Source of the DNA: Chloroflexota bacterium
GTDB lineage: Bacteria; Chloroflexota; FW602-bin22; JAMCYS01
Direction: 5' to 3'
DNA: 7,448 nucleotides
NCBI GenBank assembly: GCA_021847625.1
Contig: JAJZQK010000148.1
Span: forward strand, 1-7,448
Shown here: one piece after another, positions 2,632 through 7,448 of the stretch
How positions within the stretch are numbered: the first letter of the stretch is position 1
Layout: each line of letters opens with the position of its first letter
Notes under the pieces: model-generated
Database searches by the model: none
The model's input: the letters and a program-made list of their open reading frames with translations, nothing else
Told to the model about the DNA's origin: nothing
Program-made: the position numbers and the translations under genes

Positions 2632-3870
2632 CTAGCGCGGGATGGTTCCCTGGGCCGAACGGGAGGGCACGTCCTGGATGGGGAAGAACGTTCGCACGTC
2701 GGCCCCGTGGGCCCATACGTTGGAGAAGGTCGTCGCCCCGTTCACGATCGTGCGGAAGAGGATTAGGTTCGCCGGGGTGTTCGCGGCGGCCACGTCGGCG
2801 TCGTTGAAGGCCCACCGCGGGTGCTCGACGCCGCCGGTGTCGGCCACCACGGGGTAGCCGAGGCCGGCGTGCCCTTGCTCGAGCGTGGCCACCTCGGCGT
2901 TCAGCGAGCGGACGAGCATCACGAAGGGACGGCGGGAAGTATCCACGGATTGCAGCGTGCCGTGGGCGAAGATGTCCACGCCGATGTTGGCGAGCTTGGC
3001 CTGGCTCACGGGCGCATTATCGTGCGGGTAGACGATCTCGATCTTCGCGTCCAGGCTATCTGTCCATCCTCCCACCGCCGACGGCACGTCCTGGAAGGGG
3101 AAGATGGTGCGCGGGTCCGCCCCGTGCACCCAGACGTTGCTGTTGGTGCCGATGCCGTCCACGGTCACGAAGAAGAAGAGCTTGTTGTTCGGGTCACGGG
3201 CTGGGCTGACGTCGACGTCGTTGAACTCCCAAGTGGGGAAAGTCACGCCCTGGACCGTGCGCGTCACTTTCGTTCCCACCGCGACAGGCTCGGCCGGATT
3301 GTTGTTGAGCGCCCGCCAGAGGCGGACCGGCCGGTCGAAGTCGAACGGCACCGCGATGCTGGTCCCCGGCGTGAAGAGGTAAGCGCCGACGTTAGCCAGG
3401 TCGGCCTGGGCTGCCGGGGCGTTGTCGTGCGGGTAGACGATCTGGATCTTGGCGTCTACTTGCGAGAACCCCGCCGGGATGGCGTCGTCGTGCCGCACCG
3501 TGAAGTGCCAGGTGGTGGACTGGACCCCGTAGAAGGCGTCGTCCACGACCACGCGGACCGTGTACTCCCCCGGCGCCAGGATTCGCTGGGAGGATATTGT
3601 AGGCCGTCCTGCGGTCCCCTCCCTGGAGACAGCCACCGGCTCGGTGTTCAGGAACATGGCCGCGTCGCGCACCTCGGCGCCGCTCGCTAGAACGGAGATG
3701 GTGACCTCGCCTGCCGGCACGGTCGATCCATCGGCCGGCGTAGCGTCCAGGAAGGTGACGTAAGTGCCGGCGTTGGCTCGCGGGACGCCTATGAACAGCG
3801 CCGGGAGCACGACGAGCAGCGCGATTAGCGAGGAAAGGAGCCTGAGGCGGACGTTGGGGTTGATCGTCAA
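2632..3870 (-). CDS. Secreted protein with Ig/CopC-like domain and two tandem unknown domains
   Basis: The 412-residue product begins with a signal peptide: a basic start (NVRLR), a hydrophobic core at about residues 11-29 and a likely cleavage after ANA at 32-34. Residues 36-125 (ATPADGSTVPAGEVTISV, then APGEYTVRVVVDD) read like a small beta-sandwich of the Ig/CopC sort. Two homologous domains follow at 138-264 and 273-403, offset by exactly 135 residues. Each has KIxIVYPHDNAP, QAxLANxG, W(E/A)FNDxDV, NVW(V/A)HGADxRTxFPxQDVPS. There are no cysteines after the signal, no sortase motif and no membrane anchor, so it is probably released or loosely wall-bound. I do not recognise the repeated domain. 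The TTG start is chosen because a perfect AAAGGAGG lies 8 bases upstream and the signal peptide follows at once. It is divergent from lepA and convergent with the eamA remnant, so it is its own transcription unit. Confidence 0.83.
   Translation of the reverse strand: MTINPNVRLRLLSSLIALLVVLPALFIGVPRANAGTYVTFLDATPADGSTVPAGEVTISVLASGAEVRDAAMFLNTEPVAVSREGTAGRPTISSQRILAPGEYTVRVVVDDAFYGVQSTTWHFTVRHDDAIPAGFSQVDAKIQIVYPHDNAPAAQADLANVGAYLFTPGTSIAVPFDFDRPVRLWRALNNNPAEPVAVGTKVTRTVQGVTFPTWEFNDVDVSPARDPNNKLFFFVTVDGIGTNSNVWVHGADPRTIFPFQDVPSAVGGWTDSLDAKIEIVYPHDNAPVSQAKLANIGVDIFAHGTLQSVDTSRRPFVMLVRSLNAEVATLEQGHAGLGYPVVADTGGVEHPRWAFNDADVAAANTPANLILFRTIVNGATTFSNVWAHGADVRTFFPIQDVPSRSAQGTIPR
2662..3459 (-). repeat. 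In-frame tandem duplication inside the secreted-protein gene
   Basis: The two domain copies are encoded at 3079-3459 (first) and 2662-3054 (second). The period is 405 bases. It is best kept in DNA at the KI.IVYPHDNAP coding segment, where an 18-base string at 3021-3038 recurs identically at 3426-3443. Most of the rest has diverged at the DNA level while protein motifs stay, so the duplication is not recent or is under selection. Confidence 0.85.
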
Positions 3871-4066: not shown

Positions 4067-4180
4067 ACGTAGCGGCCGGCGTCTCCCTCGGGCCTGCGGC
4101 CCCAGGGACCTTGTCTGCCGGCCGTGGCGGCCAGACCTCGGTCCCTGGGCGCAGCCCAGGGGGACGGGCCGCCACTACGT
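4067..4180. repeat. 114-base imperfect inverted repeat (foldback element)
   Basis: The two halves pair almost end to end. Paired blocks are 4067-4071/4176-4180 (ACGTA/TACGT), 4072-4077/4167-4172 (GCGGCC/GGCCGC), 4080-4088/4158-4166 (one T-G wobble), 4090-4092/4155-4157, 4094-4098/4150-4154 (CTGCG/CGCAG), 4101-4110/4140-4149 (CCCAGGGACC/GGTCCCTGGG), 4113-4117/4132-4136 (GTCTG/CAGAC) and 4118-4120/4128-4130. This makes about 46 base pairs broken only by bulges of one to three bases. There is no T tract on either side, no clear target duplication and no transposase. It lies upstream of both divergent promoters. It may be a MITE-like or other palindromic repeat, a structured RNA, or an insulator; the sequence alone does not decide. 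Confidence 0.8.
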
Positions 4181-4321: not shown

Positions 4322-4384
4322 TCGCCTTTGGCGGGTGGAAACCCGGCCAAATCACTCGGGGCGCCACGGGCCCGCGGCGGGAAG

Positions 4385-6187
4385 ATGACCAATCAGAGCG
4401 ACATTCGTAATTTCTCCATAATCGCCCATATCGACCACGGCAAGACGACCCTGTCGGATCGCCTGCTCGAGGTCACCAACACGATCAGCAAGCGAGAGAT
4501 GGTCGACCAGGTGCTGGATTCGATGGACCTCGAGCGCGAAAAGGGCATCACGATCAAGGCGCGTGCCGTGCGCATGGAATATACGAGCGAGCGTCACGGC
4601 CGCACGTATCAGCTCAACCTCATCGACACGCCGGGCCACGTGGACTTTACCTACGAGGTCAGCCGCAGCCTGGCCGCCTGCGAGGGGGCGGTCCTCGTCG
4701 TCGACGCCGCCCAGGGCATCGAGGCGCAGACTCTGGCCAACGTCTATCTCTCCTTCGACAACGACCTCACGATCATCCCGGTGGTGAACAAAGTCGATCT
4801 GCCGAACGCCCGCCCGCGGGAGGTGGCGGCGGAGATCGAACGGGTCATCGGCATTCCCAAGGAAGAGGTCATCTTCGTCTCGGCCAAGAGCGGGCAGGGC
4901 ACGACCGAAGTTTTGGAGGCGATCGTCGAGCGCATCCCGCCCCCGCACGGCAACCGTCACCAGCCGCTGCGCGCGCTCATCTTTGACTCGCATTACGATC
5001 CCTACAAGGGCGTCGTCGCCTACGTGCGCGTGGTGGACGGCGCCATCGAGACGAATATGCCGGTGTTCACGATGGCGACGGAGCAGAAGAGCGACACGCT
5101 CGAGGTGGGCGTGTTCCGGCCCGAGCTGACGCCGGTGGATCGGCTGGCGGCCGGCGAGGTGGGATATGTCGCCACGGGCCTCAAGCGGGTGCAGGATTCG
5201 CAGGTCGGCGACACGATCACGGCGGTGAGCGACCCGGCCGGCACGCCCCTGGCCGGCTACCGGCCGGCAAAGCCGATGGTCTTCGCCGGGCTCTATCCGG
5301 TCGATTCCAACGACTACGCCCTGCTGCGCGACGCCCTCGACAAGCTACGCCTGAACGACGCCGCTCTGTCCTACGAGCCGGAAACGTCGCAGGCGCTCGG
5401 CTTCGGGTTCCGCTGCGGATTCCTCGGGCTCCTCCACATGGAGATCGTGCAGGAGCGCCTGGAGCGCGAGTACGACCTCGACCTGCTGATAACGGCGCCG
5501 AGCGTCTCCTATCGCATCACCAAGACCAACGGTGAGGTGGTCTACATAAGCAGCCCCGCCGATCTGCCGGATGAGGCGCAGGTGGCGGAGATCGCCGAAC
5601 CGTGGATGAAGATCAGCGTCATCGCCCCCAGCCGCTACATCGGCGCGATAATGGAGTTGGTCACCAAGCGCCGGGGCGAGTACGACCGTATGGAGTACCT
5701 AGACGAGCAGCGGGTGCTGCTGACCTACAACGTGCCGCTGGCCGAAATGCTGGTCGACTTCTACGACGAGCTGAAGTCGCGCACGCAGGGCTTCGCCTCC
5801 CTCGACTACGCCCTGGGCAACTATCGGGCTTCGGCGCTCGTCAAGCTCGACGTGCTGGTGAACGGTCAACCGGTGGACGCGCTCTCTTTGATCATCCACC
5901 GCGACGAGGCCTACAGCCGGGGGCGTGACCTGATAGGCAAGTTGCGCCGGATCATCCCCCGCCAGATGTTCGAGGTGCCCATCCAGGCCGCCGTCGGCAG
6001 CCGGGTCATCGCCCGGGAGACTATTGCCGCCCTGCGCAAGAACGTGCTGGCCAAGTGCTACGGCGGGGACATCACGCGTAAGCGCAAGCTGCTGGAGAAG
6101 CAGGCGGAGGGCAAACGGCGGATGAAGCGGGTGGGCAACGTCGAGATCCCCCAGGAGGCCTTCATGGCCGTCCTCAAACTTGATTAG
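4385..6187 (+). CDS. lepA: Elongation factor 4 (LepA), ribosome back-translocating GTPase
   Basis: LepA/EF4 is a translational GTPase that binds ribosomes and can reverse translocation or help in stressed or late-stage 30S assembly conditions; it acts in the cytoplasm or at the membrane. The 600-residue length is the family norm. GTPase motifs are complete: G1 HIDHGKTT (15-22), G2 in [17 protein letters not shown] (48-64), G3 DTPGHVDF (81-88), G4 NKVD (135-138) and G5 SAKSG (166-170). Domain II, the EF-G-like domains III and V and the LepA-specific C-terminal domain follow, ending in the signature [20 protein letters not shown] and [13 protein letters not shown]. The frame stays open upstream to 4124, but ATG 4385 is chosen because [14 protein letters not shown] then sits where it does in other LepA proteins and because the promoter lies at 4292-4321. 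The ribosome site (GGCGGGAAG) is weak and close. It is transcribed from its own promoter, with no gene in front on this strand and no terminator visible after it. Confidence 0.97.
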
Positions 6188-6188
6188 C

Positions 6189-6217
6189 TTGATTCACACC
6201 GGCGTGGGTGCTATACT
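6189..6217 (+). promoter_or_regulatory. Promoter of the riboswitch-controlled TsaA-FmdE gene
   Basis: TTGATT (6189-6194) and TATACT (6212-6217) are separated by 17 bases. The -35 box begins one base after the lepA stop codon (6185-6187). Transcription would start near 6224, just before the structured leader begins to fold at 6232. Confidence 0.75.
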
Positions 6218-6231
6218 CGCGGCAGAGTAGA

Positions 6232-6354
6232 CGGCCCTTTCTCCGAGCTATCGTGCCTGTGGGTGCTTGCAGGGGCGATAGCCGCAGTGGACCCTGGGGT
6301 CCCAACGGCCAGAGCGGCGACGCTCTGACCCCCCGTTCGGAAAGGAGAAGGCCG
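6232..6354 (+). promoter_or_regulatory. Moco-riboswitch-like structured leader (aptamer)
   Basis: A closing helix pairs CGGCC (6232-6236) plus TTCTCC (6239-6244) with GGAGAA (6344-6349) plus GGCCG (6350-6354): 11 pairs with a two-base bulge. Inside it, GCTATCG/CGATAGC (6247-6253/6276-6282) carries a nested CCTG/CAGG stem. CAGAGCG/CGCTCTG (6310-6316/6321-6327) is capped by GCGA, a GNRA tetraloop. The stretch between can form GGACC/GGTCC (6289-6302), or GGGGTC (6296-6301) can pair with GACCCC (6327-6332) to lengthen the tetraloop stem. The strings CTCCGAGC (6241-6248) and CGGAAAGGAGA (6338-6348), the GNRA loop and the multi-branched layout match my memory of the Moco (molybdenum cofactor) RNA family. 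The FmdE-containing gene downstream fits that ligand. The folding is seen directly; the class is by recollection and context. Another metabolite-sensing class is possible. Confidence 0.62.
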
Positions 6355-6378
6355 GATGTGAGGCTATGCACGCGTCAA

Positions 6379-6409
6379 CCGGCCCTCCTGGAGAGGTGCC
6401 GGCATTTTT
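6379..6409 (+). terminator. Rho-independent terminator acting as riboswitch expression platform
   Basis: CCGGC (6379-6383) plus CCTC (6384-6387) pair with GAGG (6393-6396) plus GCCGG (6398-6402), with one bulged T and a five-base loop; CA and TTTTT (6405-6409) follow. It lies between the aptamer and the start codon, where only regulated termination makes sense. Its 5' arm CCGGCC...CTCC (6379-6388) is also complementary to GGAG...GGCCGG (6344-6355), the 3' strand of the aptamer closing helix, giving an antiterminator. Ligand binding that holds the closing helix would free the terminator, so the predicted output is OFF with ligand. Confidence 0.8.
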
Positions 6410-6417
6410 GCTTACTA

Positions 6418-6425
6418 GGGAGGTG
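6418..6425 (+). promoter_or_regulatory. Shine-Dalgarno site deciding the GTG start
   Basis: GGGAGG (6418-6423) is 8 bases before GTG 6432. A second in-frame GTG at 6423 overlaps the site itself and is therefore unlikely to be used. Confidence 0.75.
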
Positions 6426-6431
6426 GCCGCC

Positions 6432-7448
6432 GTGGAGTTCACCCTGCAGCCGATTGGCGTCGTTCATTCGTCCATCTCCGATCCCCTGGCAATGCCCGGC
6501 GAAGGGGTGCCGGCAAGCGTCGAGATCTACGAGCCCTACGCGAGCGGATTGGCCGGACTGCAGGCTAACTCCTACGTCACCGTCATGGGCTGGCTGCACG
6601 AGGCCACCCGGGATAGCCTCGTCGCCCGCCGCAAGCGCGAGGGCGACGCCTCCCGCGGCGTCTTCGCCAGCCGCTCGCCCGGCCGGCCGAACCCCCTGGG
6701 CGTCAGCAACGCTCGTGTCACCGGCGTCGCCGGGTGCACGATTCACCTGCATGCCCTCGACTTCGTCGACGGCACGCCAGTTGTGGACGTCAAGGGGGCC
6801 ATGGGGGCCTGGGACTACGCCTGGTCGGCCACGGGCTTCCGCGATGCCCAGATCGTGAACGAGCCGGACGAGCGCTGGACGCTGGGCCTCTTTCTGATCG
6901 AGGTGGAGAACTTCCACGGCGAGCGGTGTCCGGGGCTCGCCCTCGGCGTGCGGATGGTCTACCACGTGATGCGTGCCTGGCAGGTGGCCCCCCGCGACCC
7001 TGACCTCAAGGCGATAGTGGGCGTGGACGGCGGCGTCGCCGATGCCGTGCAGGCCCTCCTGGGGGCGACGCTCGGCAACGGGCGCCTGGAGGTAACGGAG
7101 GCGACGGCCTTCCATTTTGTGCTGGGCGACAGGCAGCTGACGTTCTTTCTGCACGATCTCGCCGGGCGTTCCGTGGATGAGGTCATGGCGGCCGACGAGT
7201 CCTCGCTGTTCAGCGTCAGCGAGGGCCCGGCCGTGCACGGCCAGGAGCGGCCGGCGGGCCCGGCGCTACCGCTGGAGGGCGAGCGGCGGGTGGAGGTGCT
7301 GGCGGCGATCAGGGCCTCCCTCAGGCAAGGCAAGCTCCCGTGTCCCGTCGCCTTCCGGCTCTCGCGCCAGCTCGGGGTGGGGCTGCGCCAGATCGGCGGT
7401 CTTGTCAACGAGGAAGGTATCAAGATATGCAGCTGCCAACTCGGCTGC
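6432..7448 (+). CDS. TsaA/TrmO-like domain fused to FmdE-like domain (3' end open)
   Basis: The frame is open from GTG 6432 to the last base (339 residues) and has no stop in the window. Residues 5-130 are a TsaA/TrmO (YaeB-like) domain: IGVVHSS (8-14), then GVFASRSPGRPNPLGVS (76-92), then DFVDGTPVVDV (110-120). This family binds S-adenosylmethionine, and E. coli TrmO methylates t6A37 of tRNA. Residues 150-280 resemble the FmdE domain of Mo/W-enzyme loci, with HGERCPGLALGVRMV (162-176; His162 and Cys166 as likely metal ligands) and ADAVQALLGATLGNG (203-217). The last part has LPCPVAFRLSRQLGV and ends KICSCQLGC (331-339), a Cys-rich ending (C304, C333, C335, C339) that I recall from other Mo-related anaerobe proteins; the true C-terminus is probably only a few residues away. 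The upstream Moco-like switch suggests a role in Mo/W cofactor or metal handling rather than tRNA modification. The domains are clear; the function is inference. Confidence 0.82.
   Translation, partial: MEFTLQPIGVVHSSISDPLAMPGEGVPASVEIYEPYASGLAGLQANSYVTVMGWLHEATRDSLVARRKREGDASRGVFASRSPGRPNPLGVSNARVTGVAGCTIHLHALDFVDGTPVVDVKGAMGAWDYAWSATGFRDAQIVNEPDERWTLGLFLIEVENFHGERCPGLALGVRMVYHVMRAWQVAPRDPDLKAIVGVDGGVADAVQALLGATLGNGRLEVTEATAFHFVLGDRQLTFFLHDLAGRSVDEVMAADESSLFSVSEGPAVHGQERPAGPALPLEGERRVEVLAAIRASLRQGKLPCPVAFRLSRQLGVGLRQIGGLVNEEGIKICSCQLGC

Follow-up and report, generated by a model that had tools for sequence, protein, structure and literature searches.

A Moco/Tuco-class riboswitch with a predicted terminator switch in front of a TrmO–FmdE gene in Chloroflexota

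The contig of a Chloroflexota bacterium analysed here over 7,448 nucleotides (the window) carries a structured leader between lepA and a gene that joins a TrmO-like to an FmdE domain, which raises the question of what such an RNA could sense and why it should stand in front of such a gene. The original prediction read it as a Moco-like riboswitch followed by an intrinsic terminator, and the coordinates and strands it gave for the features of the leader at 6232 to 6409 stand as they were. For comparison, a phylum sample of 400 genomes was used, from which a comparison of LepA picks G369 as the nearest relative (81% identity). The frame of the locus is the following:

4382 to 6187, forward strand: lepA, the upstream neighbour (TIGR01393), 81% identical in G369, where it precedes the RNA too
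6189 to 6217, forward strand: putative sigma-70-type promoter TTGATT-17-TATACT, one found against a mean of 0.1 in shuffled sequences
6229 to 6361, forward strand: Moco/Tuco riboswitch aptamer (RF01055), P1 to P5, from the Rfam match and a lineage model
6432 to 7448, forward strand: the regulated gene, with TrmO_N, FmdE and a C-terminal CQLGC region, running off the end of the window

From the putative promoter, the RNA would start near 6224, and the same TGCTATACT also stands before the leader of G369. The coding sequence opens with a GTG at 6432 after a GGGAGGTGG motif, a start with which homologues beginning MEFTLQPIG agree. Elsewhere in the window, before lepA, there is a long and imperfect hairpin rich in GC (4084-4164), with a chance-level match to mir-589, that might be a terminator or a leader, together with a secreted-looking protein of 412 residues (2635-3870, reverse strand; weak Big_7, or bacterial Ig, match below cut-off) and a protein of 367 residues (803-1903) that matches DUF2229 and, below cut-off, a 2-hydroxyglutaryl-CoA dehydratase D-like family.

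Which class the RNA belongs to was approached with cmscan over the whole window, using all 4227 Rfam families and E values up to 1. Three matches came back and only RF01055 was meaningful; mir-589 (E 0.52) and AsrC (E 0.16) lay far under their own gathering scores and were dismissed. The RF01055 match, at 6229-6361, runs over the entire model (1-135 of 135) with an E value of 1e-5, but its 35.8 bits fall 0.2 bits short of the gathering score of 36, and because this score was marginal, a lineage profile was built from 40 Chloroflexota Moco RNAs, drawn from 65 and excluding the window, which picked out that same stretch at 48.7 bits (E 1.5e-10); since the G369 orthologue was among the 40, this profile is independent of the window and not of its relatives. 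Even with E values up to 10 allowed, the profile gave no second match in the window. The MAFFT alignment of the 40 RNAs yielded with RNAalifold an incomplete consensus of 16 pairs, without P2, P3 and lower P1; for this reason the alignment served as a profile with no claim of covariation, and the pairing tests given below stand in for it. With the full-length RF01055 match, the lineage score and a syntenic RNA in G369 that reaches 43.0 bits, above threshold, the class named in the original prediction is borne out, and judged by its sequence the leader is a real member of the Moco/Tuco class, one more case of a switch already known. Its parts are these:

6232 to 6244, forward strand: 5' strand of P1 (strand a), CGGCC, a CU bulge and UUCUCC, from the Rfam alignment and the duplex
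6249 to 6280, forward strand: P2, in which the receptor word CCUAA is missing, from the Rfam alignment, the fold and a word search
6289 to 6302, forward strand: P3, GGACC/GGUCC with a loop of 4 nucleotides, from the Rfam alignment and the fold
6310 to 6327, forward strand: P4 stem (arms 6310-6316/6321-6327) with the GNRA tetraloop GCGA at 6317-6320, from the fold
6331 to 6343, forward strand: P5 and the conserved GGAAA junction, from the Rfam consensus; the minimum-energy fold pairs this region differently

Helices P1, P2, P4 and P5 of RF01055 and its conserved junction nucleotides are all present in the alignment, and the junction words CUCCGAG and GGAAAGGAG are intact in both the Rfam and the lineage alignments, while P3 is found in the RNAs of the window, G369 and a second relative, G404. 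The closing helix of 11 pairs that had been described is seen in the duplex (6232-6236 with 6350-6354, 6239-6244 with 6344-6349), its upper six pairs matching the Rfam alignment, and the GNRA-capped stem is P4. The fold of the whole leader is far more stable than expected (z = -4.18, equalled by none of 200 shuffles), as is that of the aptamer by itself (z = -3.05, equalled by one of 200). In its minimum-energy form the aptamer keeps lower P1 (6232-6236), P2, P3 and P4 and forms neither P5 nor the upper P1 of the consensus; instead of these, the free folds pair 6242-6248 with 6335-6341 in both states of the switch, and the consensus form would presumably need the ligand. This seven-pair helix, which joins the conserved CUCCGAG and UUCGGA words with or without the antiterminator, may stand in for the top of P1 while no ligand is bound.

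The tetraloop of P4 is where the window departs from the common form of the class, as it reads GCGA and not GAAA, and the absence of the CCUAA word from P2 goes with it; together both changes may explain the low Rfam score. This was put in context with 109 Moco RNAs, made up of the 96 places found by phylum and class searches (94 of which reach the gathering score), 11 from G003 (one sub-threshold place there being omitted), one from G001 and the window. A GNRA loop could be called in 94 of them and in 15 none was called. Receptor words occur in 57 of the 88 RNAs with a GAAA loop, 31 being without, against none of the six with another GNRA loop (Fisher p 0.003, kinship ignored); the word was applied strictly, as 31 of 88 GAAA copies fail it versus two in the data described by Regulski et al. 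(PMC2408646). In the parts of that paper drawn on here, all four Moco RNAs with a GCAA loop are reported without a receptor, and given that non-GAAA loops go without it in both collections, the window seems to belong, with G369 and its GCAA loop, to a subgroup of Moco RNAs that lack the receptor. The same features could be taken as signs of a decayed aptamer that has lost ligand binding, with a terminator that is constitutive or relieved by something else: the score is sub-threshold, the GAAA loop and the P2 receptor word are gone, and upper P1 departs from the consensus in the free fold. We consider this very improbable, as the junction words are intact, receptor-less GCAA-loop members of the class had already been described (PMC2408646, in the sections used), the loss of the word is the rule in all six non-GAAA RNAs, and none of the other leaders among the 54 compared has an antiterminator as stable as that of the window, analysed below.

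How an RNA of this class could control its gene is suggested by the strands that follow the aptamer:

6344 to 6355, forward strand: switching strand (b), GGAGAAGGCCGG, either the 3' strand of P1 or the 5' strand of the antiterminator, from pairing tests
6379 to 6388, forward strand: 5' arm of the terminator (b'), CCGGCCCTCC, which doubles as 3' strand of the antiterminator, from pairing tests and shuffles
6393 to 6409, forward strand: 3' arm of the terminator (a', 6393-6402) and T-run (6405-6409), from the duplex and shuffles

The intrinsic terminator that had been proposed spans 6379-6402 as a hairpin of 9 pairs, interrupted by a single bulged U, and CATTTTTG comes after it; a promoter/terminator search of the window listed no site at 6379-6402, probably on account of the bulge. 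As had been claimed for strand 6344-6355, it is complementary both to strand a of P1 (-18.8 kcal/mol) and to 6379-6388 (-18.5), and the terminator duplex reaches -17.0 kcal/mol, against -8.1 and -9.9 for the non-cognate combinations a.b' and b.a'. A fourth pairing absent from the original prediction, between the 5' strand of P1 (a) and the 3' arm of the terminator (a'), amounts to -16.7 kcal/mol, and since it follows from the other three it is not independent evidence. With a terminator defined by a purpose-written script, 1000 dinucleotide shuffles of 6356-6411 gave one as stable in 2 cases, an antiterminator as stable in 2 and both in none. When the leader is folded stepwise, lower P1 persists in the optimal structure until 6382 is reached, and the antiterminator takes its place between 6388 and 6392. 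Energies from two refolds with forbidden pairs were discarded, as these left the strands entirely unpaired, and unconstrained folds and duplex energies were used.

The mutually exclusive layout of P1, antiterminator and terminator, which the original prediction had put forward, recurs in two relatives with other sequences. The duplexes of G369 are -18.7 (P1), -21.2 (antiterminator), -29.3 (terminator) and -14.7 kcal/mol (a/a'), with non-cognate values of -9.7 and -15.1, and those of G404, which has another sequence in its lower P1 than the window, are -16.0, -14.1, -20.5 and -12.2, with non-cognate values of -4.9 and -3.9. In the fold of the full leader the window favours the antiterminated form, whereas G369 and G404 favour P1 plus terminator, and the set-point is therefore not conserved. 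Beyond these loci, 17 of the 109 RNA places lacked the core word and 60 of the other 92 had a terminator-like hairpin, 54 of them close to P1; these 54 leaders entered a test with shuffled and swapped arms, and 50 of them a permutation test. In the latter, the locus-specific parts of the antiterminator paired better with their own partner (mean -3.57) than with exchanged ones (-2.56), with none of 2000 permutations as good and ranks of 0.00 for the window and 0.02 for both G369 and G404; for the locus-specific parts of P1 the values were -2.64 and -2.02, with 28 of 2000 permutations as good. Of the 54 leaders in the weaker test, 12 did better than shuffled arms (p<=0.05) and 9 better than swapped ones, the window standing at 0.05 and 0.019, respectively. 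These comparisons thus speak for an extended antiterminator in some of the Moco leaders and not in all, that of the window being among the clearest.

Very probably, then, the stretch 6229-6410 works as an OFF switch, a Moco/Tuco riboswitch whose expression platform is a transcription terminator, and the TrmO–FmdE gene behind it most likely opens a moaA–moaC operon. This reading is backed by membership of the class by profile, by the competing pairings, by the way the layout recurs and by the order of the genes in two relatives, and in it ligand binding and the direction of switching would be as follows. With no ligand, 6344-6355 would leave P1 to pair with 6379-6388, the terminator would be blocked and the operon transcribed. 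Binding of the molybdenum (or tungsten) cofactor would lock P1 and free 6379-6388 to pair with 6393-6402, and the terminator so formed would halt RNA polymerase at the T-run near 6409, the outcome being feedback repression of cofactor synthesis. The switch is compact and legible, with four strands that swap partners at near-equal energy, which makes each state testable by simple mutations.

Another way for such an RNA to act would be on translation initiation, as the ribosome-binding site of Escherichia coli appears to lie inside P1 (PMC2408646, in the parts used here), or as an ON switch. Both are very unlikely for the window, whose putative ribosome-binding motif (about 6418-6426) is outside P1 and beyond the terminator, and whose P1 competes with the antiterminator and not with the terminator. 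Neither do we give much credit to the idea that a Moco-sensing protein, rather than the RNA itself, drives the switch: direct binding was not demonstrable for Regulski et al., Moco being unstable, yet the aptamer is large, conserved and structured, and the same authors, in the available sections, bring arguments against a protein factor, though they do not rule it out (PMC2408646).

If the cofactor is what the leader senses, genes for its synthesis should be at hand, and the original prediction had indeed taken the downstream gene as pointing to Moco/Tuco. There is no moaA within the window. In G369, however, a single strand carries lepA, a Moco RNA (43.0 bits), TrmO–FmdE (62% identical to that of the window over its whole 339 residues), moaA, moaC, LspA, a MOSC protein and a YfhO protein, and in G404 a Moco RNA (65.0 bits) is followed by TrmO–FmdE, moaA, moaC and YfhO. 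As moaA and moaC come next in both relatives, the downstream gene backs the class more strongly than could be told before; moaA would lie past the end of the window, and the genes of the relatives would form a single operon. In these possibly incomplete genomes, the C-terminal domain of MoaA has one match each, in both cases at these loci.

The arrangement is confined to some of the TrmO–FmdE genes. Among 13 Chloroflexota loci (the window and 12 others of full length), a Moco RNA lies directly upstream in three, those of the window, G369 and G404, and none lies directly before TrmO–FmdE in G376, G453, G323, G418, G446, G362, G043, G010, G001 and G008. Three of these ten (G418, G446 and G362) have an in-frame stop in the TrmO–FmdE match, and in G323, where TrmO–FmdE follows yqeB, there is a Moco RNA nearby, but directed at other genes. 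In G376, TrmO–FmdE is followed by moeA with no Moco RNA directly in front (L246:5700-7963). Ten more distant loci (L002-L010, L012) showed no Moco RNA directly upstream at the gathering score; one of them, on a contig of a Syntrophomonas MAG (L007), has three Moco RNAs above that score around its TrmO–FmdE-like gene, the nearest directed away. An alignment-based scan of genome contigs gave, among the best 80 of 567, a closest locus 44% identical (L001) with no Moco RNA near its TrmO–FmdE-like gene, and in the class of that genome no RNA accompanied the full-length L094, L095 and L097 (43-45%), L096 (the L001 locus itself) or the partial L098 (33%). A single-protein scan of genome contigs confirmed nothing, and a search of plasmid DNA gave no match.

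Seen from the side of the RNA, RF01055 occurs in 53 of the 400 sampled Chloroflexota genomes, and the downstream gene was taken as the longest of the frames that begin no more than 450 bases downstream, two of the 109 places having none. An FmdE domain is found in this frame at no fewer than 14 of the 96 places (12 unfused and the two TrmO fusions of G369 and G404, all above the Pfam cut-off). Of 21 FmdE matches in 12 genomes, 14 directly follow a Moco RNA, a biased figure as 11 of the 12 were chosen for having such a case. Free-standing FmdE genes come directly after the Moco RNAs L152, L208, L212, L218, L222, L225, L228, L230, L231, L232, L236 and L237, and the L152 protein, the one tested, also has a dksA/traR-type zinc finger. 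A further place, in G376, is followed by a TrmO protein frame. When 107 downstream frames were clustered, those of the G001 and G003 loci among them, the largest cluster, with 29 frames, seemed to be a binding protein of ABC transporters, and MoaA-like frames formed a cluster of 6. Five Moco RNAs (L141, L168, L203, L216 and L235) precede P-loop NTPase-like proteins of one sequence cluster, of which the L141 protein, the one tested of the five, matches NTPase_1 (PF03266).

The regulated protein itself scores 83.3 bits with TrmO_N and 60 bits with FmdE, over 74 of its 133 profile positions, and its C-terminal CQLGC region has no Pfam match. Against TIGR00104 (TrmO, tRNA m6t6A37 methyltransferase), with an equivalog cut-off of 93.25 bits, the window reaches 93.5, G369 82.2 and G404 112.3. 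Four TrmO/YaeB-like proteins and the FmdE-like 2glz are its relatives by sequence in the PDB. An AlphaFold2 model (mean pLDDT 84.9, pTM 0.65) places helices at 283-295, 304-314 and 318-327 in the C-terminal region. A Moco RNA also stands directly before a protein of 136 residues with two copies of the CQLGC region in G298 and G310 (L224, 2351-2492, reverse strand; L229, 366-507, forward strand). Both proteins are nearly identical and without Pfam match, and the 492 homologues at E <= 0.001 bear, among the matches listed, the name 'hypothetical protein', several being from Anaerolineae.

FmdE takes its name from an operon of methanogens, and Dehalogenimonas, to which one of the comparisons below refers, belongs to the Chloroflexota. 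With the Moco/Tuco type of RF01055, as described in the portions of Regulski et al. 2008 used here (PMC2408646), the window shares the P1-P5 layout, the junction, the GNRA-capped P4 and a position before cofactor-synthesis genes, terminator platforms being already known for the class. Unlike that type, it has a score just under threshold, a GCGA loop without P2 receptor, TrmO–FmdE as first downstream gene and a long lower P1 mirrored by the terminator. Feedback control of moaA, proposed here, likewise holds for the Moco RNA of E. coli moaABCDE, which in the available part of a 2025 RNA-seq study modulates transcription termination (PMC12121620); the ribosome-binding site there is apparently in P1 (PMC2408646, same portions), in contrast to the separate intrinsic terminator downstream in the window. 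Closer in lineage, the Moco RNA of Dehalogenimonas lies directly upstream of moaA/moaC (PMC13390414), but TrmO–FmdE is not mentioned in the sections used and the word 'FmdE' is absent from the text of the paper. The same kind of fusion, of FmdE with a tRNA methyltransferase domain, is described in some Methanosarcinales and Archaeoglobales (PMC11237513), where, in the passages considered, FmdE has a role called peripheral, possibly regulatory, and the fusion is discussed as possibly regulatory around formylmethanofuran dehydrogenase, with no mention of a riboswitch. A search of the literature, with most subscription papers outside its coverage, found no paper with both the riboswitch and FmdE, nor, for TsaA with molybdenum, any title or abstract opening on the subject.

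Whether the physiological ligand of the same device could be the tungsten cofactor (Tuco), despite the P3 stem, is a question that we would answer with a cautious perhaps, at odds somewhat below even. AFOR_N marks aldehyde:ferredoxin oxidoreductases, which are typically tungsten enzymes, and G369, the closest relative found, has 16 AFOR_N matches and no MoCoBD_1, a profile that suggests, together with the general habits of these enzymes, a heavy use of tungsten. Against this, P3-bearing RNAs went with Moco genes in the survey of Regulski et al., as far as the sections drawn on go (PMC2408646), the seven molybdopterin oxidoreductases also matched in G369 may work with Mo, and G404, which shares the architecture, combines 14 MoCoBD_1 with 6 AFOR_N matches.

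Both the switch itself and its platform are ordinary for the Moco/Tuco class, while the target gene is unusual and informative. It is the recurrent pairing of Moco RNAs with FmdE or TrmO–FmdE, more than the switch, that makes up the interesting part of the locus, as a Moco RNA before FmdE genes ties FmdE and the TrmO-like domain to cofactor supply, and their role becomes testable in bacteria. Tentatively, and on odds that we would put somewhat below even, TrmO–FmdE(–CQLGC) and the free-standing FmdE proteins could be unrecognised players in the supply or insertion of the Mo/W cofactor under cofactor feedback, and the receptor-less, P3-bearing aptamer may even report the tungsten cofactor, which, if true, would break the rule that P3 means molybdenum.
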